Below are positions 14,288-47,629 of a DNA stretch of 64,000 nt, one piece after another. How positions within the stretch are numbered: the stretch's first letter is position 1; each line of letters begins with the position of its first letter. Origin of the DNA: Corynebacterium freiburgense (GTDB taxonomy: Bacteria > Actinomycetota > Actinomycetes > Mycobacteriales > Mycobacteriaceae); the NCBI RefSeq assembly GCF_030408815.1, contig NZ_CP047355.1, positions 2,666,001 to 2,730,000 of the forward strand, read 5' to 3'. The notes under the pieces were generated by a model. It did no database searches. It was not told the DNA's origin and worked only from the letters and a program-made list of their open reading frames with translations. The position numbers and the translations under genes are program-made.

Positions 14288-14857
14288 GTTTTTGTTCTAG
14301 CTTGTTTAGGGGCGGGGTTATTGTAAAAAATCTGCCTTTGTTGGGTGGTGGGTTGTGTCAGATCTGCCTGATATTTTGGGCTTGTGGGGCTGGTTTTCGG
14401 GGCGGGTTGGCTGGAAATCCAGGGTTTCCCGGGTGTTTGAGTTGGTTTTCGGGGCGGGTTGGCTGGTTTCCCGAGCCTTTGAGCCGCTTTACCTGCGGTT
14501 TGATAGGCTAACCCTATCGAACTAGTGATGTTTTCATACTGAGTGTCGCAGATTCCATAAAATCGCCTGAAAAAATGGAATTTGTGACAGCAACCAACAT
14601 TGCACACAACCGTTGACCTGGGGTTTGTCGCAGATTCCATAAAAACAGTGAAAAAAATGGAATTTGTGACAGGTTCCCTACCTATCGTGTCGCAGATTCC
14701 ATAAAATCCGCCGAAAAAATGGAATCTGTGACAACACGCCCAACCAGCGCCCAACCAGACCAAGCACTTCCCAACCAGCGCCCAAAAAGACCGGTCAGCA
14801 GCCAACCAGACCAAGCACCTCCCAACCAAATCCCAGCTCACCACAAGCACACAACCA
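14288..14857 (+). repeat. dispersed palindromic repeat element, copy A (three hairpin units)
   Basis: Non-coding element of about 570 bp. It begins with a block that reads TTTTGTTCTAGcttGTTTa then GGGGCGGGGTTATTGTAAAA, contains a small palindrome GATAGG-CTAAC-CCTATC near 14502, then three 46-bp units at 14544-14589, 14626-14671 and 14688-14733, and ends in a C/A-rich block with AAATCCCAG, TCACCACAAGC and CACACAACC. Each unit is left arm TGTCGCAGATTCCAT, a 16-nt A-rich loop and right arm ATGGAATTTGTGACA or ATGGAATCTGTGACA. The 36- and 16-bp spacers are also conserved at the inverted copy at 39196-39642, so this is a whole element and not a loose set of repeats. A 23-bp direct repeat (14392-14414 and 14444-14466) is specific to this copy. 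No transposase, flanking target duplication or credible ORF was seen. Confidence 0.9.
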
Positions 14858-15081
14858 AACCACCGGACAAAAACCAGCAAAACCAGGTCAAAACTAAACT
14901 AAAACCAGCCAAAGTCAGCGGAATCCATGAAATTGCAACCCTATCGACCCTAAAACCCCACCAGTCACAACATCCCCAAAAAGCTGGAGCATGAACTCGC
15001 CCCAACAACCCCCAAATCCTCCCTTAAAATCCCCGCACAGTACAGCTCGACATACGGGGACCAGTTCGCATTTCGTAAAAA
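14858..15081. other. C/A-rich intergenic tail after repeat copy A
   Basis: Low-complexity sequence rich in AAAACCAG-like motifs running to the 3' end of the leftward gene at 15082. Nothing else is recognised. A similar AAAACCAGG-rich stretch follows copy C, so it may belong to a longer, less conserved part of the element. Confidence 0.5.
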
Positions 15082-15585
15082 CTAGTTTGTGAAACGAAGA
15101 ACAACCACCAATTGTTCCGGGCTATATGCATACCCCATGCAATAATGCGTGCTTGTTTGTGAGTAATTGTGGAATGCCTCATCCTCAAGGAATTTTGAAG
15201 CAACACTTTGGGCGTTAAGCTGCGCACCAAGGTCGTACACATACGCAACTTCCTTCTCTCCCTCAATCGGCTCAGTGCTAGCTCCATTAAGTATCTCCGA
15301 TGCACGAGCATTGGCCGCAGCTACCTTTTCATATTCATCAACGACCATCAGATTGCCGAAATTAGGAGGCATTTGGTTTCGAATAGCAGTAGCAAGAGTG
15401 TTCGCTTCGGACATTGTTAGGTTCACCGTATGCCCACTTTGTGGGTTTGTAGCTTCTTGCCCTAATAACCCTTGTGCATCCTGGTTCCCTGAAACAAGAG
15501 CAACCAATAAACTCACAAGGAAGCCCAGCGTTGAACCGTGTTGCCGAAGAAAATCCAACACAGGTTTGAACACCGAACGTGTCAC
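15082..15585 (-). CDS. membrane-anchored/secreted protein, possibly CAP-domain-like
   Basis: A 167-residue protein. GTG 15585 is chosen because GGAGGAGGC lies about 7 bases upstream; the longer in-frame start at 15669 lacks one. Residues about 17-32 are hydrophobic (LGFLVSLLVALVSG), giving a signal anchor or signal peptide, and the rest is extracytoplasmic and soluble. The ANTLATAIRNQ helix, NARASEILNG, and the terminal YCMGYAYSPEQLVVVLRF strand remind me of actinobacterial CAP/SCP-type secreted proteins, but the catalytic His/Glu pattern is not evident. I do not assign a function. Confidence 0.6.
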   Translation of the reverse strand: MTRSVFKPVLDFLRQHGSTLGFLVSLLVALVSGNQDAQGLLGQEATNPQSGHTVNLTMSEANTLATAIRNQMPPNFGNLMVVDEYEKVAAANARASEILNGASTEPIEGEKEVAYVYDLGAQLNAQSVASKFLEDEAFHNYSQTSTHYCMGYAYSPEQLVVVLRFTN

Positions 15586-15870
15586 CCTACTGCCTCCTCC
15601 ACACAATAAAGCAAAATGCTGATCGTGGAAGTTGATAGATTTGCCAAAAGAATTCCCACTGAACAGCACTAAGAGCCTGAAATAACTCCTGTAAGTAGGG
15701 TACCATTTACGCTACAAAACTGAATAAAAAATTGCCGTCCAGATCCCCCCGATCCGTATGAATTACCCAAACTGTCAATTACCCAGACTAGAAGGAGAGT
15801 TAGGAAGTTAGGCAGCGTAAGGTAGTGGGGAAGAATTGAACGTCAAACCATCTCAAGGATGCCTAACACT

Positions 15871-17235
15871 ATGTCTCGACCGTTGCGTGTTGCCGTTGTT
15901 GGTGCCGGCCCTGCAGGAATTTACGCCTCCGACCTGCTTATGAAGTCCGAAACGGACTGCACCATCGATCTATACGAACGTATGCCTGCCCCGTTTGGGC
16001 TTATTCGCTACGGTGTTGCACCCGACCATCCACGCATTAAAGGCATTGTAAATTCGCTCTATAAGGTGTTAGACAAACCAGAGCTACGGCTACTAGGAAA
16101 TATCGATGTAGGCAATGAAGTGACCACCGATGAGCTGCGAGAATTCTACGATGCAATCATCTTCTCCACAGGCGCTGTTGGTGACCGCGACCTTGAAATC
16201 CCAGGCGCTGATCTAGAAGGTTCTCATGGTGCTGCAGAATTTGTTGGTTTTTATGATGGAAACCCGGAATTCGAGCGCTCTTGGAACCTCGATGCCAATA
16301 AAGTTGCAGTTATTGGCGTTGGCAATGTTGGCTTGGATGTTGCCCGCATTCTCGCAAAGACTGGCGATGAACTCCTTGTGACCGAAATCCCAGATAATGT
16401 ATATAACACGCTAAAACAAAACCGTGCTGAAGAAATCCATGTCTTTGGTCGGCGCGGACCGGCACAAGCGAAATTCACGCCATTGGAGCTTAAAGAACTC
16501 GATCATTCCCCCACGATTGAAGTTATTGTTGATCCTTTGGACATCGATTACGACGAAGCATCCGAAGAAGCTCGCCGTAATTCAAAGACTCAAGACTTAG
16601 TCTGCTCCATTCTTGAGCAATACGCTATGCGTGATCCCAAAGGTGCTCCACATAAATTGATTATTCACTTTTTTGAATCACCAGTAGAGATCCTCGGAGA
16701 AGACGGCAAGGTTGTTGGTTTAAAAACCGAGCGCACTGAATTGGATGGCACCGGAAATGTTCGGGGCACTGGGGAGTTCAAAATTTGGCCGGTGCAGGCG
16801 GTGTATCGCGCAGTTGGGTACCGCTCCGATGCTATGAATGATGTTCCATTTGATAATGAGCGTGCTGTGATCCCTAATGATGGTGGCCATGTCATTGACC
16901 CTGAAACCGGCGAGCCAATTCCAGGGCTTTACACCACAGGATGGATTAAACGCGGCCCTGTTGGCCTGATTGGGAATACCAAGTCTGATGCAAAAGAGAC
17001 CACAGATATGTTGCTTGCGGATTGGAACGCTGGTGAGCTCGCCACCGCACCAAACCCAAGCGAAGATGCCGTTCTTGAGTTTCTTAAAGAAAAAGGTATT
17101 GCGTACACCACGTGGGCAGGTTGGCATAAGCTCGATGCCGCTGAACGTGGACTAGGTGAGGCGGAAGGTCGCGAACGTAAAAAGATCGTTGAATGGGACG
17201 ATATGGTTGATCATGCCCGCCACGACGCTAGTTAA
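15871..17235 (+). CDS. fprA: ferredoxin/flavodoxin-NADP+ reductase FprA
   Basis: An adrenodoxin-reductase-type flavoenzyme (454 residues) that moves electrons between NADPH and ferredoxins. FAD-binding motif VAVVGAGPAGIYASDLL at the N-terminus, then the family strings APFGLIRYGVAPDHPRIK and NIDVGNEVTTDEL; NADP-binding GVGNVGLDVARIL near 150 with VFGRRGPAQAKFTPLEL; C-terminal FAD contact TTGWIKRGPVGLIGNTKSDA, and the terminal LEFLKEKGIAYTTWAGW. A second ATG at 15859 lies only one base after AAGGA, which is too close, so 15871 is preferred although its spacing is long. The 285-bp region before it has no other gene. A short paralogous gene lies at 54931. Confidence 0.95.
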   Translation: MSRPLRVAVVGAGPAGIYASDLLMKSETDCTIDLYERMPAPFGLIRYGVAPDHPRIKGIVNSLYKVLDKPELRLLGNIDVGNEVTTDELREFYDAIIFSTGAVGDRDLEIPGADLEGSHGAAEFVGFYDGNPEFERSWNLDANKVAVIGVGNVGLDVARILAKTGDELLVTEIPDNVYNTLKQNRAEEIHVFGRRGPAQAKFTPLELKELDHSPTIEVIVDPLDIDYDEASEEARRNSKTQDLVCSILEQYAMRDPKGAPHKLIIHFFESPVEILGEDGKVVGLKTERTELDGTGNVRGTGEFKIWPVQAVYRAVGYRSDAMNDVPFDNERAVIPNDGGHVIDPETGEPIPGLYTTGWIKRGPVGLIGNTKSDAKETTDMLLADWNAGELATAPNPSEDAVLEFLKEKGIAYTTWAGWHKLDAAERGLGEAEGRERKKIVEWDDMVDHARHDAS

Positions 17236-17303
17236 TTCGCTCACATCAAACGAGTTAGGCAGTACATGTAAAACGGCGTAAAACCGTTTCCACACCCCTC
17301 AAG

Positions 17304-17338
17304 ACACCCCCGTTACAGGCATATGGGGGTGTTATTTT
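17304..17338 (+). terminator. rho-independent terminator after fprA
   Basis: Stem ACACCCCC (17304-17311) pairs perfectly with GGGGGTGT (17325-17332) across a 13-nt loop, followed by TATTTTTC. It lies 70 bases after the fprA stop and before the next rightward gene, so it separates the two transcription units. Confidence 0.8.
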
Positions 17339-17407
17339 TCTTGCTTTTTGGGCTCTCCCCGGGAAATATAACGCAATTTTTAGCTACGGCGTGTATCTTG
17401 AGACGCC

Positions 17408-17881
17408 ATGAACAACTACTTTGCTGTTTCTCACCTCACTCAGCTCAGCGCCCTTGAGGTTCATAAGCTCTATAAGCTTCGCGTTGACGTTTTCGTGCAT
17501 GAACAACGATCTCCCTATGCAGAAATTGACGATATCGACGCCCTGCCAACCACCAATCACATGCAGGCTTGGGACTCAGACAAACATCTCCTGGGAACTG
17601 CTCGCCTGTATCCAGAAAATGATCGCTGGCACCTCGGACGCGTGTGCGTAGCCAAGCCGTATCGAGGTACTGGTCTTGGCGCTGAGATTATGCACCAGAC
17701 ACTTCGCCTAGCATTCGAGCAGAATCCAGAATTTGATGTTTTTATTGAAGCTCAAGAACAACATCTAAAGTTCTACGAAAACCTTGGCTTTAAAGCAACC
17801 GGCGAGGCGTTCGATCTTGATGGTGTATCACACGTGCCAATGCTACTCAAAGCCGATGAATTAGCTGCTATGTTCGCATAG
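17408..17881 (+). CDS. GNAT family N-acetyltransferase (ElaA-like)
   Basis: A 157-residue acetyltransferase. The N-terminal ALEVHKLYKLRVDVFVHEQ and the VEEQ-type region match ElaA-like GNATs; the acetyl-CoA pyrophosphate loop is VAKPYRGTGLGAEIM (Q/RxxGxG/A form), followed by the helix and EAQEQHLKFYENLGFKATGE. Substrate unknown. It is an orphan unit starting after the fprA terminator and followed 69 bases later by a phosphoribosyltransferase gene on the same strand. Confidence 0.88.
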   Translation: MNNYFAVSHLTQLSALEVHKLYKLRVDVFVHEQRSPYAEIDDIDALPTTNHMQAWDSDKHLLGTARLYPENDRWHLGRVCVAKPYRGTGLGAEIMHQTLRLAFEQNPEFDVFIEAQEQHLKFYENLGFKATGEAFDLDGVSHVPMLLKADELAAMFA

Positions 17882-17950
17882 CATTGTTTCTTCTGCCAGA
17901 AACCAAGGGGCCAACTCGATTGGGCACTATTCCAGCGGTAAAGTTAATCC

Positions 17951-18451
17951 ATGGCTTATCATGCGGACTCTGCTGAACTTACAAGAAAAGAAGTGCTCAC
18001 TTGGGAGTTGTTTGGAACGGCATCCCGGGAACTCGCACAAGAAATCGTCGATAGTGGCTTTGAACCTGAAATCATTATTGCTATCGCTCGTGGCGGCCTT
18101 GTCCCTGCGGGCGCTTTATCGTATGCGCTTGGCATCAAGCTCAATGACACAATGAACGTTGAGTTTTATACGGATGTAAATGAGACCCTTCCGGACCCCA
18201 TCCTCCTTGAACCCCTCTTGGATGAAAAGTCCATCGCTGGCCATAAACTTCTGTTGGTTGATGATGTTGCCGACTCTGGACGTACACTCGCCCTGGCATT
18301 GAAATTACTTGAACAACAAGGAGCAGAGGTACGGAGTGCTTGCTTGTTTGCAAAAAGCCGCTCAGAAATAACCCCTGATTATGTTTGGAAGCACACCGAT
18401 GAGTGGATTGTGTTCCCTTGGTCTGAGAAACCACCGGTCACAGCAAAGTAG
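17951..18451 (+). CDS. purine-type phosphoribosyltransferase (Gpt/Hpt-like)
   Basis: A 166-residue type-I phosphoribosyltransferase. The PRPP-binding motif is LLLVDDVADSGRTL near residue 100; an upstream IIAIARGGLVPAGALSYALG forms the PRPP loop (RGG); the C-terminal WIVFPWSEK is typical of xanthine/hypoxanthine PRTases in actinobacteria. It likely salvages a purine base, consistent with the neighbouring purT and purA, but base specificity cannot be read. It is convergent with purT, 27 bases apart. Confidence 0.85.
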   Translation: MAYHADSAELTRKEVLTWELFGTASRELAQEIVDSGFEPEIIIAIARGGLVPAGALSYALGIKLNDTMNVEFYTDVNETLPDPILLEPLLDEKSIAGHKLLLVDDVADSGRTLALALKLLEQQGAEVRSACLFAKSRSEITPDYVWKHTDEWIVFPWSEKPPVTAK

Positions 18452-18478
18452 GCAGTACGTTTGACGGTCGCGGCGTCG

Positions 18479-19687
18479 TTAATCTTGCGCTACTTTGATA
18501 GCTGCCGCGGCCTGACGCGCGCGTTCCCGAGCCGTTGAAATATTTTCGGCGGTGGCCAGTGCAACCCCCATACGTCGTTTAATATGGGCTTCAGGCTTAC
18601 CAAACAATCGAACATCAGTTTCCTCAATGGCTAGCGCTTCAGCTAAACCTGTATAGGAAACCCCTACTTGATCCACCCCGCCATAAATCACGGCGGAAGC
18701 ACCCGGAGATACGCAGGTCACATCAATAGGCAGACCCAATACAGCGCGCGCATGCAACTCAAATTCGGAGATCCGCTGGCTGACCATTGTAACCATGCCA
18801 GTATCGTGCGGGCGTGGAGAAACCTCCGAAAAATACACATCATCACCCGCAACAAACAATTCCACACCAAATACTCCACGACCACCGAGCGCGCCAGTAA
18901 TACGCGCTGCAACCGAACGTGCATTTGCCAGTGCGATAGGGCTCATTTGGGTAGGTTGCCAGGATTCTACATAATCACCATCCTGCTGGACATGCCCGAT
19001 TGGTTCACAGAACCAGGTTGCATCTTCACCAGTTGAAGGATCAATTGACCGAACCGTAAGCATTGTAATTTCGTAATCAAATGGGACAAAGCGTTCGATA
19101 ATTACCCGGCCTCCGGCAACACGCCCACCGCTGCGAGCATAATCCCATGCGGCATACATCTCATCTTCCGAATGTACGATCGATTGCCCTTTTCCAGATG
19201 AACTCATAACCGGTTTGACCACACACGGAAATCCCATATGAGCCACCCCTTGTTGGTACTCCTCATAGGTACCAGCAAAGGCATATGCGGAAGTTGGAAG
19301 TCCAAGCCGCTCCGCAGCAAGCCTTCGAATTCCCTCTCTATTCATAGTGAGCTGGGTAGCTCGAGCGGAAGGAATAACAGTAGTTCCTGCCGACTCAATC
19401 TCCACCAATGCACCAGTAGCCAATGCCTCAATTTCAGGCACAATAAAATCTGGCTGAACCCGCGCGACTAACTCATGGATAGCCACGGGATCAGTCATAT
19501 CGAGCGTGTAGTAATAATGCGAAACCTGCTGTGCTGGCGCGTATTGATACCGGTCAGCCGCGTGAACCTCCACCCCCAAACGCTGAAAAGCAATTGCAAC
19601 TTCCTTGCCCAATTCCCCCGAACCGAGAAGCAGTACACGGGTCGCGGTTCGAGAAAGTGGAGTGCCGATCTTTTCAGGCGTAAGCAC
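18479..19687 (-). CDS. purT: formate-dependent phosphoribosylglycinamide formyltransferase PurT
   Basis: An ATP-grasp enzyme (402 residues) making formyl-GAR from GAR, formate and ATP in purine synthesis. N-terminal [21 protein letters not shown], the [13 protein letters not shown] segment, the ATP-grasp strands [16 protein letters not shown] and [19 protein letters not shown], metal-site [17 protein letters not shown] and the terminal [10 protein letters not shown] are all present. Start is GTG 19687 with AAGGAG about 11 bases before it. It lies 153 bases downstream of purA on the same strand. Confidence 0.96.
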
Positions 19688-19815
19688 GTTGAAAATGCTC
19701 CTTCGATCAGGTCATTGGCGATAAGGACTACACAAAGTATAACGAGCCTTTAGATTCCATTCAGTGTCTCATTATTTTATCCAAGTGATTTGCGAGTTTT
19801 ATTGCAAAATATGAA

Positions 19816-19838
19816 TTTTCTGGCCGTGCGGGCCAAAA
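19816..19838 (-). terminator. possible terminator after purA
   Basis: TTTT-CT-GGCC pairs with GGCC-AAAA across a 5-nt loop, with a two-base bulge, just past the purA stop. The U-tract on the leftward transcript is weak (AGAAAATTC), so termination strength is doubtful and purA-purT readthrough is possible. Confidence 0.35.
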
Positions 19839-19840
19839 CA

Positions 19841-21130
19841 TTAGGATCCCATAACATCATGGAGAACGATCGTTTGATCACGTCCAGGGCCGACACCAAT
19901 ATAAGAAATTCGGCAGCCTGAAAGTTCTTCAAGCCTACGCACATAGTCCTGAGCGCGTTGCGGCAAATCCGCAAAGGTTTTGCAGTCAGTGATATCTTCA
20001 TCCCAGGCTGGCATAGTTTCATAAATCGGAGTCGCATGGTGAAACTCGGATTGCGTTACTGGCATTTCGTCATAGCGTTTTCCATCGACGTCATAGGCAA
20101 CGCAAATGGGGATTTCACCAATTCCGGTAAGTACGTCCAGTTTAGTTAAGAATAAATCTGTAAAACCATTCACTCGCGAGGCATAGCGCGCGATAACAGA
20201 GTCGTACCAACCACAACGACGTTTGCGCCCGGTATTTACTCCCACCTCGCCACCGGTGACCTGGAGGTACTCGCCCCATTTATCAAAAAGTTCAGTAGGG
20301 AATGGCCCCGCACCCACACGAGTTGTATAGGCCTTAATAATGCCCAAGGATGAGGTAATGCGTGTCGGACCAATTCCGGCACCTACGCATGCCCCGCCAG
20401 CAGTTGGGTTGGAGGAAGTAACAAATGGATAGGTCCCGTGGTCAACATCAAGCATGGTGGCCTGGCCACCTTCCATAAGCACATGCTTTCCAGCGTCTAG
20501 AGCTTGGTTAAGCTCCAGTTCGCTTTCAATGACCATAGGGCGGAGTCGCTCAGCATAGCCAAGGAAATATTGCACGATTTCTTCCGCAACAATGGCTTTC
20601 CGGTTATACATTTTCACCAGAATTTGGTTTTTTACATCCAGGGCGGATTCCACTTTCTGGCGCAAAATGGATTCATCGAAAATATCCTGAATGCGGATTC
20701 CCACGCGCGAGACTTTGTCAGCATAGGTAGGCCCAATACCCCGTCCCGTAGTGCCAATTGCTCGTTTGCCTAAGAATCGTTCTTGCACCCGATCAAGCAC
20801 CTGATGATAAGGAGCAACCACATGTGCATTAGCGGAAATACGTAACCGAGACGCATTACAACCACGGGCTTCTAGACCGTCAATTTCTTCAAATAACGCT
20901 TCAAGATTAATAACAACGCCATTACCCAACACTGGGATTGCGTTTTCTGAAAGCACGCCCGCTGGCAGGAGCTTAAGTTCGTACTTTTCGCCGCCAACAA
21001 CAACGGTATGCCCAGCGTTGTTTCCACCGTTGGGTTTGACCACGTAGTCGACGAGCCCACCAAGGATATCGGTGGCTTTGCCTTTGCCTTCATCGCCCCA
21101 CTGGGCACCGACGATTACGATTGCGGCCAT
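19841..21130 (-). CDS. purA: adenylosuccinate synthetase PurA
   Basis: Joins IMP and aspartate using GTP in AMP synthesis. The 429-residue protein has the GTP loop [18 protein letters not shown] at the N-terminus, [28 protein letters not shown], and [12 protein letters not shown] 21130 is chosen (AGGAAG 11 bases upstream); a GTG at 21142 overlaps that ribosome-binding site. The divergent gene starts at 21203. Confidence 0.97.
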
Positions 21131-21202
21131 TGAAAAAGTCACTTCCTGTAGAAATGTAAAGAAGACGGCTTAAGATTCTACTACGCGCTAAACTCTCGTT
21201 CC

Positions 21203-22054
21203 ATGCGAACGCACGTCCTGCTTTGCGGCCCTTATGACGGCCCCCTTCCGACCGACCCCCAAATCCATGCATTGCCAAACCTCCCAGGGCGTCGCGACCT
21301 CCAACTGCTTAATGAAATCACCAGCGTGCACCTACCGCACGATCCCACACCCACGCTCGAAGAAATCACTCGCCAGCCCGACGTCGCACACCTTTCGGAA
21401 CCTAAGCTTGCTCCTCAACGTGAGCATCTCACCGAACCACTCCGCTTTATTGTGGTGGGTTCTGACGCCGCACTGTCTGCTATCCTCACCCGCCTTATGC
21501 GTATCGACGCCCTCTGGGTCGAAATCGCCTTTATTCCCCAGGTTTCCTCAACCACCGCAACAAGCTGGAATATTGCTGGTGACCCTTGGAAGCTTGCACT
21601 GGAAGGGTCCATCGCCCCAACCCCCTTAATTCGCGACGATGCCGGCATTGCCATCGCCGGAAGTGCATCCATTACCACCTGGGACGGCACCGAACTCTAC
21701 GGCGAAATTATCGTCGATTCCGAAACTTTATGTGCAGGCTTTGAAGAAGGCCTTCGCCGCAAAATAGGAACATACGGCACAAAGCTTGTTCCCATGCTAA
21801 AAGCCCCTGGAATCGCCGCAGTCCCCTACACTACAAGCTTGGAACCCCGTACCGGCTTCCTAGGACTCCGCGACCGCAGCCCACGCGGCTCCGTCGATTC
21901 CTCTCGGCTCGCCACCGGACGCGCCCTTCAAGCTGGCGGCAAACAACTCAAAGTTACCGTTGATGGCATCACTCGCCCTCGCCCCGTCAAACACGTAACT
22001 TTCTACCGCCACTTACGCGACCTCCAGGCGGTGCGGATCAAACACGCTGGCTAG
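21203..22054 (+). CDS. conserved hypothetical protein downstream of purA promoter
   Basis: A 283-residue soluble protein I do not recognise with certainty. Residues about 74-100 (RFIVVGSDAALSAILTRLMR) are arranged like the GGDGT-type region of the diacylglycerol/NAD-kinase fold but lack the GDGT itself. A basic, glycine-rich stretch (GLRDRSPRGSVDSSRLATG) follows. No signal peptide or membrane helix. It is followed 31 bases later by the DUF1963 gene, and probably shares its transcript. Confidence 0.75.
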   Translation: MRTHVLLCGPYDGPLPTDPQIHALPNLPGRRDLQLLNEITSVHLPHDPTPTLEEITRQPDVAHLSEPKLAPQREHLTEPLRFIVVGSDAALSAILTRLMRIDALWVEIAFIPQVSSTTATSWNIAGDPWKLALEGSIAPTPLIRDDAGIAIAGSASITTWDGTELYGEIIVDSETLCAGFEEGLRRKIGTYGTKLVPMLKAPGIAAVPYTTSLEPRTGFLGLRDRSPRGSVDSSRLATGRALQAGGKQLKVTVDGITRPRPVKHVTFYRHLRDLQAVRIKHAG

Positions 22055-22085
22055 CCTGTTTGGGCACGCCGATAGGCTGCACATC

Positions 22086-22913
22086 ATGTCAATCACTGAT
22101 GTGTACCTAGAGCCCCTGGACAGCCAAATTGAAAAGTATGAACCTGCTCTACGTAGCCTCACTCGCCCCACTACGATGTTGCGTCCACTTCCCGTTCCAG
22201 CCCCCACCCTCGAAGCAATGTTGGATGCAGCTGAGCAAAATCCCGCAAGTTCTCGCATTGGTGGACCAGGCCTTGTAAGTGCCCAGCACCCTTGGCCTAT
22301 AGACCCTAGCGACCTACCAATGTACCTAGTCACCCAACTCAATCTCGCCGAGTTACCACCTCAACCAAATTTACCGTCCGATGGTTTGTTGCAGTTTTTT
22401 ACTGAAGAAGATCCGCTGGGTTTATTTGAGCTGAAACCGGTTGAAAATATTGCCACATTAGTGCGCTATATTCCGGCCCGCGATATACCTGATATGCGTC
22501 TCGAATTCCACGCAATTCCTGAGTTCGCTCTCGTTTCTGGCGGCTATTTCAAGATCACCGCAACTCCTTACGATCAGTACCCCGTTTTTTCGGACACCAG
22601 TTTCGCTCCTGAAGATTTACGACTTCTCCGCCAGATCGATTTATGGGACGAACACCCCGAGCGTCTTGACGAATTCCTTAACGCCCAACACGCAACCGTG
22701 TTTAATGGCGGCTGGGCCCGCTTTGTCCAATCTGATCCTCGCGAGCCCGATCATAGCCTCTCTCTATTACTCCAAATTGATGCCTATGATTTTCCCATCG
22801 GCGAGGTCAGCTTAGAGATCGCAAATTCCGGCATCCTTAATTACTTCATTCCAACCACCGACTTGCGCGCCCTTACCTTCAATAACGCACGCTACTACTG
22901 GGATTCTCACTAA
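22086..22913 (+). CDS. DUF1963 (YwqG-like) protein
   Basis: A 275-residue cytoplasmic protein. The IGGPGLVSAQHPWPIDP segment followed by PMYLVTQLNLAELP and DGLLQFFTEED is the DUF1963/YwqG signature (GG-PWP, then F-x-QINL). Later HSLSLLLQIDAYDFPIGEVS repeats the theme. The biochemical role is unknown; family members are sometimes linked with toxin immunity and surface glycan genes, but nothing here supports either. Convergent with the FUSC gene; the 118-bp gap holds nothing recognisable. Confidence 0.8.
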   Translation: MSITDVYLEPLDSQIEKYEPALRSLTRPTTMLRPLPVPAPTLEAMLDAAEQNPASSRIGGPGLVSAQHPWPIDPSDLPMYLVTQLNLAELPPQPNLPSDGLLQFFTEEDPLGLFELKPVENIATLVRYIPARDIPDMRLEFHAIPEFALVSGGYFKITATPYDQYPVFSDTSFAPEDLRLLRQIDLWDEHPERLDEFLNAQHATVFNGGWARFVQSDPREPDHSLSLLLQIDAYDFPIGEVSLEIANSGILNYFIPTTDLRALTFNNARYYWDSH

Positions 22914-23031
22914 TTTAGGTGCCGTACTGCCCACACCAAAGTTTTGGGATAGATGAGAACAAGGAACCTCAGGGCTGGGTCTTGATCTACAAGGTCCGGG
23001 GTAATCCAACACGCGCTATATCAGCGCTACA

Positions 23032-24168: not shown

Positions 24169-24201
24169 TACTTTCACACCTTTGGTTTTACATACACGAA
24201 T

Positions 24202-24231
24202 CCCCGCAACACCTTCATCGACGCTGCGGGG
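24202..24231 (-). terminator. hairpin between fba and FUSC gene
   Basis: CCCCGCA pairs with TGCGGGG across a 16-nt loop 16 bases after the fba stop on the leftward strand. The following ATTCGTG lacks a clear U-run, so it may attenuate rather than fully terminate. Confidence 0.45.
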
Positions 24232-37746: not shown

Positions 37747-37848
37747 AGTGCTCACTGTATGTGAGTTTCTTGGAGTTCTCCACAGTTTTTGGTTGATATT
37801 TTGCCTTCATAATGCGTATTGTCACTAGCCCATGTCAGTGTCAAAGGT

Positions 37849-38088
37849 ATGACTCTTGAATTTGACCCTCATCAAACAGTCCATTTCCCTGCGCCCCAAT
37901 TAGGTACAAGTATTCCCATTGGTGGACCGCTTACCGACGCCGCTCTCGCCCGGGCTTCGGCGAATTGGCAGGCGCACGCAGACCATTTACGGGATGCCAC
38001 TAATGATTGGACCGTTCATGTCCAACAGTTTTTAAATAGTGCGTACGATAGAGACCTTGCCACCGCATGGCGGCTTGCATGCCTATAA
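37849..38088 (+). CDS. small protein preceding DUF1023 hydrolase
   Basis: A 79-residue product beginning MTLEFDPHQTVHF, with a helical part (LARASANWQAHADHLRDATNDW). The Trp within the helical pair is reminiscent of WXG100-like proteins that often precede DUF1023 domains, but there is no WXG motif proper. It ends 22 bases inside the next frame. It may be a separate partner, or the N-terminus of the DUF1023 protein split by a frameshift. The AAAGG before the ATG is too close to be a normal ribosome-binding site, and a TTG 30 bases earlier is an alternative start. Confidence 0.5.
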   Translation: MTLEFDPHQTVHFPAPQLGTSIPIGGPLTDAALARASANWQAHADHLRDATNDWTVHVQQFLNSAYDRDLATAWRLACL

Positions 38089-39164: not shown

Positions 39165-39195
39165 TAAACACGTTTGCCGGACTACACTGTGCTTG

Positions 39196-39642
39196 GGTTT
39201 GTGCGCTTGTGGTGAACTGGGATTTGGTTGTGCACGTCCGGCGACCTGGTCCTTTCGGGTGCTGGTTGGGCGTGTTGTCACAGATTCCATTTTTTCGGCG
39301 GATTTTATGGAATCTGTGACACGATAGGTAGGGAACCTGTCACAGATTCCATTTTTTTCGCTGTTTTTATGGAATCTGCGACACACCCCAGGTCAACGAT
39401 TGTGCGCAATCTTGGTTGCTGTCACAAATTCCATTTTTTCAGGCGATTTTATGGAATCTGCGACACTCAGTATGAAAACATCACCAGTTCAATAGGGCTA
39501 GCCTATCAAACACCCAGGAAACCACCTCAAACCCCAGGCAAAGCAGCCGCCACACCAGGAGACTCCGAAAAACCAGCTCCGCCACCGAAAACAACAGGCA
39601 GATTTTACAATAACCCCGCCCCCAAACAGCCTAGAACAAAAC
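39196..39642 (-). repeat. dispersed palindromic repeat element, copy B (inverted, three hairpin units)
   Basis: Reverse-complement copy of the element at 14288-14857, shorter (about 447 bp) because the region between the GGGGCGGGG block and the GATAGG palindrome differs. The three 46-bp units are at 39276-39321, 39338-39383 and 39420-39465. Spacers match copy A (CGATAGGTAGGGAACC in the short one, the AACGATTGTGCGCAATCTTG region in the long one). One unit (39276) has perfectly complementary arms. It fills the gap between the DUF1023 gene and the 3' end of adhA, so adhA transcripts would read into it in element-sense orientation. Confidence 0.9.
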
Positions 39643-39695
39643 TATTCTGGTTTTCGGGGACAGGGTCAAAACCGCTGGTTCAAAAACCGCTGGGC

Positions 39696-40724
39696 TTATG
39701 GGTAGCGGATCGACATGCGTCCGTCAATACGGCCTTTGCGCATATCTTCGAATACGGTATTGATGTCATCGAGCTTGCACTCTGTGACTGTTGGCTTAAT
39801 CATGCCGCGAGCATAAAAGTCAAGCGCTTCCTCGAGGTCTTGGCGGGTGCCCACCAGCGAACCGCGAATGGTCAGCGCTTTAAATACAATATCGAAGATC
39901 GGTGCGGGGAAGTCACCTGGAGGCAGCCCATTAAACACAATGGTTCCACCCTTGCGCGCCATGTCTATAGCCTGGCCAAATGCCTGAGGATGGACAGCGG
40001 TAACCAGCACACCATGTGCACCACCCTTTGTGTATTCGGTAATTGCTGGGCCTGGCTCACGCTCACGAGCATTTACCACAAACTCAGCACCATGCTTTTT
40101 GGCCAGTTCCAATTTCTCATCAGCAATATCCACGGCAATGACTCGTAACCCCATCGCAACGGCATATTGCACCGCAATATGCCCAAGACCACCCACACCG
40201 GAAATGACCACGAATTGCCCAGGACGGGTATCAGTAACCTTCAATCCCTTGTATACCGTTACGCCGGCGCAAAGAATCGGCGCAACCTCAACCGGATTGG
40301 ATCCCTCGGGGATTCGCGCGCAATAACGAGTATCTACCAGCATGTACTCTCCGAAAGAGCCATCTACCGTGTAACCACCATATTCTGCATCATTACACAA
40401 GGTTTCCCAACCAGTGCGACAGTGCTCGCATTCACCGCATGCAGACCATAGCCAAACATTGCCAACAATATCGCCAATATCCACACTATGTTTTCCTGGC
40501 CCAAGTGCAACAACTTCGCCAACACCTTCATGGCCTGGCACAAATGGCGGTTCTGGTTTCACTGGCCAATCGCCTTCTGCGGCATGCAAATCCGTATGAC
40601 ACACACCGGATGCATGAAGTTTCACCAATGCCTGATTCGGGCCCGGCTTTGGCAGTTCCAGGTCACCGATTACCAAATTAGGGCCGAATTCTTCGACGAT
40701 TGCCGCTGTAAATGTATCTGACAT
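39696..40724 (-). CDS. adhA: zinc-dependent alcohol dehydrogenase AdhA
   Basis: A 342-residue MDR alcohol dehydrogenase oxidising ethanol to acetaldehyde. Catalytic-zinc motif SGVCHTDLHAAEGDW and PGHEGVGEVV; structural zinc Cys cluster WSACGECEHCRTGWETLC near residue 100; Rossmann motif ISGVGGLGHIAVQYA; terminal MRKGRIDGRMSIRY. The upstream leader carries AGGAGGGG. Together with the aldehyde dehydrogenase upstream it forms an ethanol-to-acetate route. A terminator-like hairpin separates the two genes, so adhA probably has its own promoter. Confidence 0.95.
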   Translation of the reverse strand: MSDTFTAAIVEEFGPNLVIGDLELPKPGPNQALVKLHASGVCHTDLHAAEGDWPVKPEPPFVPGHEGVGEVVALGPGKHSVDIGDIVGNVWLWSACGECEHCRTGWETLCNDAEYGGYTVDGSFGEYMLVDTRYCARIPEGSNPVEVAPILCAGVTVYKGLKVTDTRPGQFVVISGVGGLGHIAVQYAVAMGLRVIAVDIADEKLELAKKHGAEFVVNAREREPGPAITEYTKGGAHGVLVTAVHPQAFGQAIDMARKGGTIVFNGLPPGDFPAPIFDIVFKALTIRGSLVGTRQDLEEALDFYARGMIKPTVTECKLDDINTVFEDMRKGRIDGRMSIRYP

Positions 40725-40771
40725 GACCCCTCCTTAAGGGAAATATTTTTCAATATGGTGTAAAAATGGCG

Positions 40772-40795
40772 AAAGACCGGTCTACACCGGTCTTT
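40772..40795 (-). terminator. rho-independent terminator after the aldehyde dehydrogenase gene
   Basis: A perfect 10-bp stem AAAGACCGGT/ACCGGTCTTT with a 4-nt loop starts 21 bases past the stop at 40816. On the leftward strand it is followed by CGCCATTTTTAC, giving a short U-tract. Confidence 0.8.
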
Positions 40796-40815
40796 ACGCG
40801 CATACGCTTCAACGA

Positions 40816-42336
40816 TTAGAAGAAGCCCAATGGTTTCTCGCTATAAGAAACCAACATGCACTTTGTTTCCTGATAGTGGTCCATCATCATCGCGTGATTT
40901 TCACGCCCAATTCCAGACAACTTATAGCCGCCAAACGCAGCATGTGCAGGATACGAATGGTAGTTATTTACCCAAACCCGGCCAGCCTGAATTTCCCGGC
41001 CTGCACGGTACGCAGTATTTTGATTACGCGTCCAAACACCAGCACCCAATCCATATACGGTGTCATTGGCGATCTCCATTGCCTCTTCAAAGGTCTTAAA
41101 GGTAGTCACAGCTAGGACCGGGCCGAAGATTTCTTCCTGGAAGCACTGCATAGAATTATCGCCCTTAAGAATGGTCGGCTCGATATAGAACCCACCCTCA
41201 AAGCCTTCAATGGTTGCCACGTGGCCACCAGTGAGAACTTCTGCGCCTTCGGCAGGGCCAGACTTAAGATAACCGGCGATCTTATCCATTTGATCCTGGG
41301 AAGCTTGAGCACCCATCATGGTTTCAGTGTCCAATGGGTTACCAGTACGAATATTCCGCACCTTCTCCACTGCAAGTTTCAAAAACTCATCAGCTATGGA
41401 TTCATGTACAAGGGCTCGTGACGGACAAGTACAGATTTCACCTTGGTTCAATGCGAACATGGCTAAACCTTCAATGCACTTTTCCCGGAAATCATCGTCT
41501 TTATCCATAATGTCTGGGAAAAAGACCGAAGGTGACTTTCCGCCAAGTTCAAGGGTTACTGGAATAACTTTTTCGGATACCGCCCTGTGAATTTGCTGTC
41601 CTACCGCGGTAGAACCAGTAAATGCAATCTTGGAAATTCGGTCGGAGGAGGTAATCGCATCTCCAACTTCAGTACCACGCCCGTTCACCACATTAAGCAC
41701 GCCGGGTGGGAGTAAATCTTGTATTAACTCTATGACAACAAGAATGGAAACCGGTGTTTGCGCTGCTGGCTTCAAAACAATACAGTTGCCTGCGGCAAGC
41801 GCAGGTGCAAGTTTCCAGGTAGCCATAAGGATTGGGAAGTTCCAAGGAATAATCTGGCCAACCACACCAATTGGTTCCTTGAAGTGATACGCAACAGTAT
41901 CATCGTCAATTTGAGAAATACGCCCTTCTTGGGCTCGCGCAATACCCGCAAAGTACCGGAAATGGTCGATTGCTAGTGGTATATCCGCTAGCAGCGTTTC
42001 ACGCACCGCTTTTCCGTTTTCCCATGTTTCCGCAACCGCAAGCATTTCCAGGTGCTCTTCCATGCGATCTGCAATTCGATGAAGAATAAGGGCCCGCTCG
42101 GCTTGAGATGTTCTCGCCCAAGCATCTTTTGCGGCATGGGCTGCATCAAGGGCTAGCTCGACATCTTCTGCTTTCGACCGGGGCACTTCGCAAATCACTT
42201 GACCAGTCACCGGGGTGATGTTTTCCATATATTCGCCACCGATCGGTGGCACCCACTTACCACCAATGAAGTTTTCATAACGCTGCTTGAAGGTGATCAG
42301 CGACCCTTCAGCCCCTGGATTTGCATAGATGGTCAT
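40816..42336 (-). CDS. ald: NAD-dependent aldehyde dehydrogenase (acetaldehyde dehydrogenase type)
   Basis: A 506-residue ALDH. NAD-binding [20 protein letters not shown], the catalytic Glu in [14 protein letters not shown], and the catalytic Cys in [15 protein letters not shown]; the C-terminal [21 protein letters not shown] is characteristic of the corynebacterial Ald/ExaC group. ATG 42336 is chosen (GGAAGG 11 bases upstream); a start at 42381 has no support. It converts acetaldehyde from AdhA to acetate, which AckA-Pta can then activate. Confidence 0.94.
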
Positions 42337-42742
42337 TAGGCAAGTTACCTTCCTCGACTCGATACTGGATGCGTAACCCAAAGCCTAATGATGGAACGAA
42401 GTGTTGTGCGTCATAGTTATCTTGATGCATTCACGCCCAGCTCAATTTCGCCCCAAAATCAATGGTTTTGCAGGCGATTTACAATGAATTTACTAATTCT
42501 ACAACAAGCTAAAATTACCCCCGCGAGATACCCCCACATTATCAGCATTATGTCGCTAAAACCATTTATCAGACACGCTTCACACCCCCAAGAGTCTTAA
42601 AACTGGAAAACTAGATAATCCTAAATTTTTGACATAAAAAAACTGATTAAAATTCTTTACTGAAAAAATGCGAAATCAGGGCACAACTTTAAAAGCAAAA
42701 CAGTGTTCACCCCCGATACAATTAGCGCCTCACCACAAAGCG
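42337..42742. other. intergenic region between hspR and ald
   Basis: 406 bases of A/T-rich sequence without a supported gene. It should contain the leftward ald promoter and the 3' end of the hspR transcript. A small inverted repeat TAGCGC/GCGCTA (about 42724-42747) lies at the end of hspR but lacks a U-tract. Nothing else is recognised. Confidence 0.5.
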
Positions 42743-43159
42743 CTACGAGCGTTTCCGACGGCGCGGCTCCCACATCACTACCGCTGTTGAGCGTGGCACA
42801 TGAACGATTTCACCGCGAGGCCGCTCCTGCTTATTGCGTAGCTTTTCAAGTTCCAATTTCAGCTCATTGTTTTCCGCATTGAGCCGTTCATTATCCCGTT
42901 GCAGACGTTCATTTTTAGTTTCCAACGAAATAATCGTTTTGATACCTGCAAGATTCACGCCTTCTTCTTGGCTTAATCGGTGGATTTCGCGGAGCAAATC
43001 CACATCACGGCGGGTATAACGGCGACCGCCGCCGCGAGATCGCAGCGGCGTTACCAAACCCATTCGATCGTAGGCTCGAAGAGTTTGAGCATGCAATCCA
43101 GCAAGTTCAGCAGCAACGGAAATGACAAAAAACTCTACATCTGGTTTATCCCTACTCAT
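42743..43159 (-). CDS. hspR: heat-shock repressor HspR (MerR family)
   Basis: A 138-residue regulator. The N-terminal MerR helix-turn-helix is [43 protein letters not shown], quoted here in parts: [19 protein letters not shown] then [15 protein letters not shown] coiled coil ([19 protein letters not shown]) and a basic tail (PRRRKRS) follow. HspR with DnaK represses its operon and clpB at HAIR sites, two of which are present in this window. ATG 43159 overlaps the dnaJ stop (ATGA), with GGAGCGA before it. Confidence 0.95.
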
Positions 43160-44304
43160 TTCGCTCCAGCCCACCCTTCTCGCGGATCAAAACCTGAGAC
43201 ACGCTCCGCTTCAGCATAAGTACGGAGTGCGGTGGCGGCAGCGGCGTCGAGATGCTGAGGCACAGTCACATTTACGGTTACCAAAAGGTCACCGGCGCTA
43301 CCATCACGCTTTTCGACGCCCCGACCACGCACCCGCAATGTGCGTCCGTTCGGCGTTCCAGCGGGAATTTTTACCCGTACGGGTAAATCTAAAGTAGGCA
43401 CGCTAACGGTATCGCCCAATGCGAGTTCAGCAAAACTTACTGGAATAGTTACTTCAAGATCATCACCAGTACGTGTGAATACGGGGTCTGGACGAACGTG
43501 TACCGTGACAAATAGATCGCCAGCAGGCTTGCCTTTCGGCCCAGCTTCACCCTTGCCGGCAAGACGAACTTTCTGGCCATCAATCACACCAGTTGGGATA
43601 CGCACGGTAATGGACCGTGTCCTATGAACCGTCCCAAGTCCGGAGCACTCATGGCATGGGTCTATAACACGTTGACCAGTGCCTTCACAATCTTCACACG
43701 GAGCGGAAAGGCCGAAAGCGCCGCGAGTTTCGCTACGAAAACCAGAACCATTACATGTAGTACATGTAGACGTTTTTCCGGTACGAGAACCCGACCCATG
43801 ACATGCCGAGCACGGAGCTTGACCAGTGAGTTGTATTGGGAAAACTGTACCTTTGGCGGCCTCGCGGAAATCTAGCGTAATTTCCGTTTCAACGTCGGCC
43901 CCTCGTGTAGCCCGAGCCGTGTTGCGAGTAGCACCACTGCGGTTGAAAAGGCCACTGAAGATGTCACCAAAACCACCTTCTTGGCTATATCCTCCCCCGC
44001 CGAAAATATCCGAGAAGTCCTGTCCGCGAAACCCGGCACCATAACCTCCGAGTCCACCGAACCCACCAGCGGCAAAGGTTCGTTTGAACTCATCGTATTC
44101 GGCACGTTTCGATTCATCGCCAAGAACATCATATGCTTCTGCAGCTTTTTTAAAACGCTGCTCCGCAGCTTTGTCTCCTGGGTTTTTATCTGGGTGATTT
44201 GCCCGAGCGAGGGTACGGTAAGCCCGCTTAATCTCATCGGCGCTCGCGGACGAGGAGACACCCAGGTCCGCATAGTAGTCTTTTTCCGCCCATTCACTTC
44301 GCAT
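43156..44304 (-). CDS. dnaJ: co-chaperone DnaJ
   Basis: A 382-residue J-protein that stimulates the DnaK ATPase. J domain at about residues 9-75 with the HPD motif ([13 protein letters not shown]), a Gly/Phe-rich region ([13 protein letters not shown]), four CxxCxGxG zinc modules ([32 protein letters not shown]) and the C-terminal substrate-binding domains. ATG 44304 has a GGAAGGAGG ribosome-binding site; the longer start at 44376 has none. A 102-bp gap separates it from grpE. Confidence 0.96.
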
Positions 44305-44406
44305 TACTGGGCTCCTCCTTCCTGAGTCATAAACAATGAAATTAATTGTGTTCAACAAAGCTAGTGACACACTCACGGGCCCACGACAATGTGGGCCCGT
44401 AGCGGT

Positions 44407-45060
44407 CTACTGTTTACGATCCGCAATAATCACCATGGCGGTTCGAAGCAATCGATCACCCATAACATAGCCACGTCGAAGCACAGTTCCAATTGCCTTA
44501 TCGTCGCCTTCGGAAAGATCTTGGACAGCTTCGTGGCGCTCAGGGTCAAAATCATCACCTTCAGCACCAAACTCCGCAACCTTCATGGAAGTCAATGTAG
44601 CCCGGAACTTATCGTTCAAGGACTTCAAAGGACCAGCCTCATCCAGTGCGCCATGTTGAGCCGCCAGATCTAGATCGTCGAGCAATGGCAATAACGCAGT
44701 TACTACCTGGGCTTTTGCCATTTCGATTGCTACAGTACGTTCCCGCTCCGTGCGGCGTCGATAATTGGTGTACTCCGCGGTAATACGTAGCAGATCTTCT
44801 GTGCGTTCAGCAAGTTCCGCTTCCGTATCAGAGACCTCACCATCCCCATCATGATCCGGCTCGACCTCTACCCCATCAACTGATTCGGCAGTAGTAGAGT
44901 CTTCGGCTTCATCAGGTTCAGCATCCGCCTTCACATCTTCGGATGCATCTGGAGAAGCCTCCGAATCTGCAGCTTCTGCTTCGGCAGCCGCGACCTCAGC
45001 TTCAGCAAGCGCCTCGTCAATCGCCTTATCTAGTTCAGGGTCACGCGGGTTGTCGGTCAC
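44407..45060 (-). CDS. grpE: nucleotide exchange factor GrpE
   Basis: A 217-residue protein that releases ADP from DnaK. The first 90 residues are very acidic ([20 protein letters not shown]), the middle is a long coiled coil ([20 protein letters not shown]), and the C-terminal beta domain has [12 protein letters not shown] and [18 protein letters not shown]. It begins with GTG at 45060, overlapping the dnaK stop by 4 bases. Confidence 0.96.
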
Positions 45061-46889
45061 TTCTTCTCTTCTTCCTCGTCAACTACCTCAGCATCAACAA
45101 CATCGTTATCGGTTGTTGTGGTGCTCGAAGCAGTGGAAGCGTTCGCAGCTTCAGCTTCGTAAATCGCCTTGCCCAACTCTTGAGAAACGGTGGAAAGAGT
45201 ATCTACAGCCTTCTTAATGTCGTCGATATTGTCACCCTTGAGTGACTCTTCAACGTCTTTTGCCGCACCTTCAACCTTGTCCTTGATCTCATCGGAGATC
45301 TTGTCCTCATTATCGGTAACGAACTTACGAGTCTGGTAGACCATGGACTCTGCAGAGTTACGTACTTCTTGCTCTTCGCGGCGACGCTTGTCTTCCTCAG
45401 CATGGGTTTCAGCGTCCTTGATCATCCGATCAATTTCTTCCTGGGACAGGCCAGAACCATCTTGGATCTTAATGGTGTTTTCCTTGCCGGTACCCTTATC
45501 CTTCGCAGTTACGTGCACGATACCGTTAACGTCAATGTCGAAGGTGACTTCGATTTGAGGCAGACCGCGAGGCGCCGGAGCAATACCACCAAGTTCAAAG
45601 GAGCCAAGCAACTTATTGTGTTGTGCGATTTCACGCTCACCCTGGAAAACCTGAATCTGTACCGAAGGCTGGTTGTCTTCAGCAGTGGTAAAGGTCTCGG
45701 AACGCGTGGTCGGGATAGCAGTATTCCGCTCAATGAGCTTGGTCATAACCCCACCCTTGGTTTCAATACCGAGTGACAGCGGAGTGACGTCGAGGAGCAG
45801 CACATCCTTTACTTCGCCACGGATAACACCAGCTTGAAGTGCAGCACCAACGGCAACAACCTCATCTGGGTTCACACCCTTATTGGGTTCACGTCCACCC
45901 GTGAGCTCCTTTACCAAATCAGTTACTGCAGGCATACGGGTAGAACCGCCAACAAGCACAACATGGTCTACATCTTTAATGGAGACACCTGCATCCTTAA
46001 TAACCTGGTTAAACGGTGCCTTTGTGCGATCCAGAAGGTCTTGGGTGATCCGCTGGAATTCTGTCCGAGACAGGGTCTCATCCAAGAACAATGGGTTTTT
46101 GTCTGCATCAACAGTGATATAAGGCAGGTTAATGCTTGCAGTCTGTGCTGAAGATAGTTCAATCTTGGCTTTTTCAGCTGCCTCACGGAGACGCTGCATA
46201 GCCATCTTGTCCTTGGTCAGATCAATACCGGAGCTTGCCTTAAACTTCTCCACAAGCCAATCAACAATGCGCTGATCCCAGTCATCACCACCGAGGGCAT
46301 TGTCACCAGCGGTTGCGCGAACCTCTACAACACCATCACCAATTTCCAACAAAGAAACGTCAAAGGTGCCACCGCCGAGGTCAAATACCAGGATGGTTTG
46401 CTCTTTATCACCTTTTTCAAGACCATAAGCAAGTGCAGCGGCCGTAGGCTCGTTAATAATGCGGAGCACATTCAAACCAGCAATCTGGCCGGCTTCTTTT
46501 GTTGCCTGACGCTGAGCATCTTCGAAGTAAGCAGGAACGGTAATGACCGCATCAGTAACTTCTTCTCCAAGGTACGCTTCAGCATCGCGCTTCAGCTTCA
46601 TCAGGGTACGTGCGGAAATTTCCTGAGGAGTGTACTTCTTCTCATCGATACCAACATTCCAATCCTCACCCATGTGACGCTTTACGGAACGAATGGTGCG
46701 ATCCACGTTGGTGACAGCCTGGTTTTTAGCTGACTGACCAACTAATACTTCGCCGTTTTTCGCGAAAGCTACCACAGATGGTGTGGTGCGAGAACCTTCG
46801 GCATTTGCAATAACTACCGGATCACCACCTTCAAGCACTGCAACAACTGAGTTTGTGGTGCCGAGGTCAATGCCTACTGCACGTCCCAT
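45057..46889 (-). CDS. dnaK: chaperone DnaK (Hsp70)
   Basis: A 610-residue Hsp70. ATPase domain starts [19 protein letters not shown]; phosphate-2 motif [19 protein letters not shown] near 165; [13 protein letters not shown] near 300; linker [19 protein letters not shown] near 360; substrate-binding domain and helical lid follow; the acidic tail ends [17 protein letters not shown] precedes the ATG. First gene of dnaK-grpE-dnaJ-hspR, with an HspR operator about 100 bp upstream. Confidence 0.98.
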
Positions 46890-46988
46890 AGTTTTTCCTC
46901 CTGATATTTCGGGTTATTAGTGCAACTTCATCAAAGCTTGAGATTGATACAGCTCGGCTCAACCTTCAGTCACTAGATTAGCAGCCAC

Positions 46989-47009
46989 CTTGAGCCAAAA
47001 CCACTCAAG
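46989..47009. promoter_or_regulatory. HAIR operator for HspR upstream of dnaK
   Basis: CTTGAGC-N7-ACTCAAG matches the HspR consensus CTTGAGT-N7-ACTCAAG at 13 of 14 fixed positions. It lies 100-120 bases upstream of the dnaK ATG, the expected location of the heat-shock promoter. Confidence 0.85.
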
Positions 47010-47042
47010 CTTTTCAATCTGTATAACGGACAATCTAACAAA

Positions 47043-47063
47043 CTTGTTCCCGTTCGACTCAAC
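47043..47063. promoter_or_regulatory. weak second HAIR-like site upstream of dnaK
   Basis: CTTGTTC-N7-ACTCAAC keeps the spacing and one good half-site but has several mismatches in the left arm. Its centre is 54 bp from the strong site. It may be a low-affinity secondary site or chance. Confidence 0.35.
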
Positions 47064-47344
47064 TTTTTTGTTTTCGCAGCTCAAGGAGCCTCTTTCCATA
47101 TGCTAAGCACTCCTGAATTCAATCTTCCATAAGTTTGTACGAATAACCTTCCCTCGATAACCCCCGCAATCGAAGCGGCCACATACAACGGCCCAGAACC
47201 TATCCCGTAAGTTCAACTAGTTTTCTTTCCATACTCTTTGCGGCTGGAAGTTTTGGTTTGAGCACAACCCATGTAACTGACCACTCAGAACACGGGCTGA
47301 CTCACAGGCGCATGGGCTGAAGTTTCCAGGCTCTCCAGGAGTGC

Positions 47345-47629
47345 TTGATAGGCACACCCTATCGAACTAGCGATGTTTTCATCCCTACTGTCGCAGATTC
47401 CATAAAATCGCCTTTAAAAATGGAATTTGTGACAGCAAGCAACATTGCACACAACCGTTGACCTGGGGTTTGTCGCAGATTCCATAAAATCCGCCGAAAA
47501 AATGGAATCTGTGACAACACGCCCAACCGGCACCCAACCAGCACCCAAAAAGACCAAGCACCTCCCGACGAGAGCCCACCCAACCCTAACCAAATCCCAG
47601 GTCACCAGACGCACACAACCAAACCACCG
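47345..47629 (+). repeat. dispersed palindromic repeat element, copy C (two hairpin units)
   Basis: Same orientation as copy A, but its left part is absent: it starts at the GATAGG-CACAC-CCTATC palindrome. It has only two units, 47389-47434 and 47471-47516. The sequence between them equals the A spacer that follows unit 1 (AACATTGCACACAACCGTTG), and the second unit equals A unit 3, so unit 2 plus its 16-bp spacer (62 bp) has been lost, as expected from recombination between adjacent units. It ends with AAATCCCAG, GCACACAACC and AAACCACCGG shared with copy A. Confidence 0.88.

Follow-up and report, generated by a model that had tools for sequence, protein, structure and literature searches.

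In this study, we analyzed a window of 64,000 nucleotides from the genome of Corynebacterium freiburgense, in which three elements built from palindromic units lie between genes. These elements belong to a family dispersed over at least 78 intergenic loci of the host genome. On balance, we regard the family as part of a superfamily of nonautonomous, mosaic intergenic repeats in a small Corynebacterium clade. This superfamily resembles miniature inverted-repeat transposable elements (MITEs), BOX elements, and bacterial interspersed mosaic elements (BIMEs) and would have been spread by a putative enzyme. The superfamily was probably once mobile. One spacer of the elements is a motif common to other hairpin families, a feature that the initial annotation of the window had missed.

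The three loci and eight units described in that annotation were all located. The core unit pattern matched nine times in the window, one unit being matched on both strands, compared to no match in 100 dinucleotide shuffles. The unit is 44 bp long and consists of two 14-bp arms and a 16-base loop (188 of 209 host units have this loop length), with edges of the form GTCRC..GYGAC. In the host genome (2.96 Mb, two contigs; G000 in our comparison), a profile scan of the fetched places gave at least 209 units at no fewer than 78 loci, 36 on the plus strand and 42 on the minus strand; 78 is a lower bound, as the places were taken from the matches listed and loci without an exact core were not sought. 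Sixty loci carry three units, 11 carry two, and seven carry one, and the unit spacing is 82 or 83 bp followed by 62 bp in 52 of the 60 three-unit loci. The core patterns matched the host genome 85–104 times per strand (reversed control, 0); near-palindromic units may match on both strands. When the 570-bp element, that is, the first window element as initially delimited, was compared with the host genome, itself and at least 39 further loci were found at 78–94% identity (53 pieces; 40 of 94 candidates scored).

Read on the element strand, a host element opens with an end motif of weak conservation and a G/T-rich arm, followed by a GATAGG..CCTATC mini-palindrome and a GATGTTTTCATC-like stretch. 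Three units come next, with a spacer of 38 bp between units 1 and 2 and of ca. 18 bp between units 2 and 3, and a C/A-rich arm closes the element. From the mini-palindrome through unit 3, family-wide conservation mostly exceeds 90%, and most columns of the arms are lower. Most columns of the mini-palindrome itself are highly conserved, its outermost bases less so. Of the common architecture first proposed for the three window elements, the mini-palindrome, the units, and the spacers held across the family; the GGGGCGGGG block, found in elements 1 and 2, is absent from element 3 and is not strongly conserved family-wide. Units 1 and 2 are separated by the 38-bp spacer, which forms a conserved module and contains the superfamily-wide motif TTGCACACAACCGTTGACCTGG, and the C/A-rich right arm of the host elements holds a degenerate inverted copy of this motif. 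The spacers are conserved between copies and not unique, in agreement with the earlier view that these are not clustered regularly interspaced short palindromic repeats (CRISPR); no search for cas genes was made.

Among 242 Corynebacterium genomes, the unit pattern was found in two, the host and G190, and the reversed control gave no match. G190 is also the closest genome to the host in DnaK identity (98%), followed by G196 and G025 (96%), and the others among the matches listed had 89% or less (240 of 242 genomes matched). The fullest arrays of G190 are symmetrical: a pair of units around the 38-bp spacer is followed by a 17-bp near-palindrome and then by a second pair of units around the same spacer in inverted orientation. 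Three loci of this genome (L067, L075, and L086) have arrays tandemly duplicated at 461 bp, and several contigs of this metagenome-assembled genome (e.g., those of L059, L060, L061, and L094) stop in or near elements. Copies are alike within a genome and unlike between genomes: the mean normalized score was 0.66 and 0.52 within genomes and 0.30 between genomes (150 sampled pairs each). In G196, a 40-kb self-comparison revealed no repeat, and the rest of that genome was covered by pattern searches alone. Neither the plasmid nor the phage collection searched yielded a match to the 570-bp element, so an origin from a plasmid or phage was not supported.

The intergenic repeats of G025 carry the motif GATAGGTTGTGTGCAACCGCCGACCTGGG without a unit of the host type. 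When the motif TTGYRYRCAACNNCYGACCTG was searched with at most one mismatch, it was found 95 times in G025, 41 times in G190, 18 times in the host, once in each of two other genomes, and in none of the other 237 of the 242 genomes, in which the reversed-pattern control also gave 0. A 340-kb stretch of G025 contains 12 inward-facing motif pairs, seven of them 126–127 bp apart, one 74 bp, and four 1778–1780 bp. The sequences enclosed by such pairs are mostly palindromic and differ from the host hairpins. By eye, they form imperfect hairpins, TTCTTC..GAAGAA in family A and of the GTCCTTTTATGTGAC type in family C; another family, B, has TTTTTTACACA-type palindromes and a reduced motif visible by eye. 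Of six representatives given to an automatic palindrome finder, four yielded one to three units, and 172 control pieces yielded none; one palindrome was confirmed in family B. In the host, one of the 16 motif places listed lies outside the 78 loci and belongs to a second palindrome family, with units such as GTCGCCAAATACACCA..TGGTGTAAAAAGCGAC and a loop resembling TTGTGCGCAA. Its GTCGC..TACACC units are mostly 73 bp apart, and none is inside the window. The second-family pattern matched 52 times in the host and 157 times in G190 but not in G025, G196, G044, or G073 (reversed control, one match in G073). After merging of matches less than 1 kb apart, this family occupies 25 host loci (e.g., contig C1 218450, 377022, 544167, and 2054518; L205 and L206), and a form of the motif was readable beside its units in eight of nine loci inspected, two of them weak. 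Since the motif was seen with several unlike hairpin families, motif and overall layout remain the same, and it is the hairpins that differ.

Comparison of occupied and empty orthologous sites, proposed when the elements were first noticed, revealed short junctions in the relatives. Between aligned flanks, the element 2 site measures 582 bp in the host versus 41 bp in G025, 43 bp in G190, and 40 bp in G196. The element 1 site measures 957 bp versus 117 bp in G025, and the element 3 site 1027 bp versus 541 bp in G025 and 300 bp in G196. At two further sites, the host has 1307 and 1114 bp versus 314 and 344 bp in G025, respectively, and at another it has 785 bp versus 35 bp in G190. These short junctions indicate that the host copies were inserted. 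Of 15 host copies compared beyond 2.44 Mb, ten have both flanks in the 340-kb G025 stretch. At five of the ten sites (those of the three window elements and the 1307- and 1114-bp sites), the G025 gap is shorter and holds none of the G025 repeats detected; at four, it is occupied by a G025-type element, although the left flank of one of these aligns only at a distance of 1.4 kb, and the tenth site is unclear. The probability of sharing four of ten sites by chance was 0.001 (15 repeat loci in 279 gaps) or 0.0075 when 161 gaps of at least 40 bp were considered. Thus host sites are shared by the G025 elements, though neither host unit pattern occurs in G025.

Host and G190 elements flank opposite sides of a shared stretch of ca. 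0.4 kb in a reciprocal presence/absence (L118:13664–14558 and L072:3394–4294); we take this stretch to be the RNase P RNA gene. Both genomes are occupied, with both flanks aligned, at five sites (L075/L108, L088/L119, L089/L132, L090/L110, and L076/L107); this comparison was limited to the element-bearing loci of both genomes and yields no rate. Inheritance at the five sites was not supported by the sequences of the copies, which ranked 15, 77, 1, 25, and 70 of 78 in the host and 25, 9, 8, 35, and 14 of 37 in G190.

Gene context was assigned with a crude codon-based gene finder. All 78 host copies are intergenic, although one extends 29 bp into the end of a predicted gene, and no gene was predicted inside any copy, so the location between genes first seen for three loci holds for the whole set. 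Twenty-four copies lie between convergent genes, more than expected from the remaining pairs of neighboring genes in these stretches (odds ratio 2.7, p = 8e-4). Copies nevertheless occur in every gene context, with 15 of 78 between divergent genes.

We searched for an enzyme that could mobilize these elements. The four long copies of G025 were examined as a possible autonomous 1.8-kb partner, which was rejected: each proved to be a small element containing an IS481-family insertion with its own ends. The family assignment is based on NCBIfam NF033577, which scored 222.8 bits, slightly below its cut-off of 224. The first copy (L155:9987–11819) encodes a 457-aa transposase, and the others are located at ca. 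2674264–2676095, 2676362–2678195, and 2717924–2719751 of G025 contig C1. In all four, the insertion is at the same point between two hairpins, in both orientations, with ca. 14 bp duplicated as read by eye. The IS481-family element is a repeat-targeting insertion sequence (IS), which marks the small repeat as its target and not as a source of enzyme. No IS with matching ends was found by the motif search of the 242 genomes. The integrase-core domain PF00665 matched twice in the host, 18 times in G025, once in G196, 20 times in G044, 13 times in G073, and not in G190, and these counts gave no candidate mobilizer in the six genomes. The two host matches are at C1:1782006–1782155 and 1665481–1665750, one of them with in-frame stops.

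We propose the following course for the superfamily. The simplest form, represented in G025, is a motif (approximately GATAGGTTGTGYGCAACCGYYGACCTGGG), a hairpin unit, a short spacer, a second hairpin unit, and the inverted motif, to which extra units and low-complexity arms would have been added in the host. A transposase or recombinase would recognize the inverted motif, and perhaps the hairpins too, and would insert copies into intergenic DNA, preferably where gene ends converge. Within one genome, copies would be kept alike by copying or gene conversion, and subfamilies may exchange entire hairpins.

Several results weigh against this proposal. The right-hand inverted motif is weak in the host, being detected in one of the 78 loci at E ≤ 0.01, ten at E ≤ 0.1, and 39 at E ≤ 5, although three controls gave no locus at E ≤ 0.1 and 6, 5, and 5 matches at E ≤ 5. 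Hidden Markov models (HMMs) detected the outer end motifs in just 28 (left) and 18 (right) of the 78 host copies. Inverted repeats at the outermost host ends, convincing by eye, were not supported by the consensus sequences of these ends, which were not significant inverted repeats (p = 0.22). In G025, the imperfect hairpins of families A and C rest on reading by eye because the automatic palindrome finder detected none in them. No autonomous partner was found, with the motif present in only five of 242 genomes and no whole-genome scan for other partners made. Target-site duplications, expected from the initial comparison with MITEs, were not readable at the sites examined, where the boundaries are blurred by low-complexity arms. 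Finally, the copies at sites shared by the host and G190 are not consistently each other's closest, and the shared sites may therefore be hot spots and not a sign of inheritance. Hot-spot insertion and rewriting in place are both compatible with site sharing. The suggestion of a MITE-like mobile element is thus borne out by the many copies and the empty orthologous sites, but neither target-site duplication nor a mobilizing enzyme was found.

Transcribed hairpins serving as a 3'-end stabilizer, a terminator-like structure, or a regulatory RNA are an unlikely alternative explanation. The core of element 1 folds well on the element strand, with a minimum free energy of −101 kcal/mol (z = −10.2), compared to −87.2 kcal/mol (z = −3.3) on the opposite strand, in keeping with the structured RNA first suggested. 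Non-Watson-Crick stem cells of the host units on the element strand are G.T in 267 cases and A.C in 37; however, this asymmetry comes mostly from two positions with a G.T consensus pair and may reflect one ancestral state. In G190, the mismatches lean to the same strand at position 4 of unit 2 (26 of 31) and at position 7 of units 3 (26 of 31) and 4 (16 of 20). At position 7 of unit 1, however, the opposite strand is favored (12 of 19), and a C.C mismatch is present in 12 of the 31 units 2, so that one strand is not favored throughout. The excess at convergent gene ends would suit such an RNA, whereas the presence of elements in every gene context, divergent gene pairs included, would not. No T-tract was seen by eye after the stems, no terminator scan having been run, and membership in an Rfam RNA family was not supported, with no match above the gathering score in the window.

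We also think it rather improbable that the elements are arrays of binding sites for a sequence-specific DNA-binding protein, such as a nucleoid or partition protein or a regulator, with each palindrome forming a two-half-site operator and the subfamilies serving different proteins. The half-site GTCRCARATTCCAT recurs up to eight times per array at fixed spacing. Its two degenerate positions frequently carry unlike bases in the two halves (Watson-Crick pairing at position 4 in 24% and at position 7 in 51% of the 209 host units), and both features speak for protein sites. The recurrence of two units per motif pair with unrelated hairpins points the same way. However, the confinement of the unit to two genomes of the genus argues against this explanation, including the chromosome-organizing protein of the initial annotation, as do the coming and going of elements between sister species and an element orientation that does not differ significantly between one half of the contig and the other (p = 0.36, with the origin of replication not located). 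No candidate protein was identified.

In a further version that we hold unlikely, sites and end motif would persist across species, with hairpin interiors replaced wholesale and homogenized per genome, as a cassette-like rewriting at fixed intergenic addresses by a dedicated putative enzyme. Mobilization of repetitive extragenic palindrome (REP)/BIME-type elements by a REP-associated tyrosine transposase (RAYT, TnpA-REP) is very improbable despite the paired palindromes, conserved linkers, and intergenic mosaics: the RAYT Y1 transposase domain PF01797 was unmatched in the host, G190, and five other genomes of the genus (control search positive in five of 14 known genomes), an argument that would fail only if the enzyme had since been lost or were not covered by PF01797. 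The unit and loop also exceed those of REPs in length, and neither the unit nor the G190 spacers showed a GTAG/CGTC tag.

As a mosaic repeat spread by a putative enzyme, the family has partial parallels in other bacteria. REPs are defined as palindromes of 20–40 bp with an unpaired GTAG or CGTC tag, and the boxB module of BOX is ca. 45 bp long. Like REPs, BIMEs, and REP doublets forming hairpins (REPINs), the Corynebacterium elements have paired palindromes with linkers and a high copy number, but they differ in their 44-bp units, 16-base loops, up to three or four units with a constant inverted motif, and the absence of the RAYT family and of the tag. According to the part of PMC3733652 available to us, REPs with the CGTC tag apparently have no dedicated transposase; none was found for the Corynebacterium elements either. 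BOX elements of Streptococcus pneumoniae and S. suis are described in the accessible part of PMC3049150 as interspersed composite repeats with end modules around a variable number of hairpin modules, the module sets differing between species. The likeness is one of layout, modular ends surrounding repeated hairpin modules here too; the BOX sequences (boxA, boxB, and boxC) were not compared. In S. suis, unlike end modules flank the same boxB type (same part of PMC3049150), whereas here the end motif is constant and the hairpins are exchanged. With bacterial MITEs, as presented in the available part of PMC10969869, the elements share their noncoding nature, occupied versus empty sites, and inverted motif pairs in the simple G025 form (12 pairs in the G025 stretch; degenerate right copy in the host), but not a readable target duplication or an IS with matching ends, and they are mosaics with internal hairpins. 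No description of the element was found in the literature searched by words and four sequence strings (mostly titles and listings), as the initial annotation had supposed; the repeat is neither restricted to three places nor, in that search, a named family. While mosaic intergenic repeats are known in other bacteria, the Corynebacterium superfamily appears to be undescribed.

How mosaic repeats without a dedicated transposase arise and spread is a general question, as for the CGTC REPs (cf. the available part of PMC3733652). In this clade of close species, a constant motif occurs with several unrelated hairpins, and some sites are shared between species and others are empty. Such a natural series permits direct tests of whether the elements are mobile, undergo conversion in place, or are retained as protein sites. 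The search for the enzyme is also defined: it should occur in the host, G190, and G025.

By their end-motif HMM matches, the three window elements run further than first delimited. Element 1 extends over 14275–15067 on the plus strand, with the mini-palindrome at 14502–14518, unit 1 at 14545–14588, the 38-bp spacer with TTGCACACAACCGTTGACCTGG at 14589–14626, unit 2 at 14627–14670, and unit 3 at 14689–14732; a degenerate inverted motif was read by eye on the minus strand of its C/A-rich right arm at 14829–14861, family-level matches of this motif being mostly individually weak. A phosphate acetyl/butyryl transferase gene (Pfam) and a gene without Pfam match are its neighbors. Element 2 lies on the minus strand at 39171–39655 (right end a weak, partial match, E = 0.005), with unit 3 at 39277–39320, unit 2 at 39339–39382, the 38-bp motif spacer at 39383–39420, unit 1 at 39421–39464, and a GATAGG..CCTATT mini-palindrome at 39491–39507. 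Its convergent neighbors encode an alpha/beta hydrolase and a zinc alcohol dehydrogenase (Pfam), and these genes nearly or fully abut in three relatives. Element 3, on the plus strand at 47209–47736, has the GATAGG..CCTATC mini-palindrome at 47347–47363, its first unit at 47390–47433, the 38-bp motif spacer at 47434–47471, and its last unit at 47472–47515, and a degenerate inverted motif in the right arm on the minus strand at 47590–47619 (by eye, with the family-level test above). It is located between the divergent genes for HSP70 (DnaK) and proline dehydrogenase/aldehyde dehydrogenase. In addition, CAGATCTGCCTGA-type motifs are present in the arms of host elements (e.g., 14340–14372 of the window) and in G025 (L155:9854–9950), and are perhaps a further shared module.

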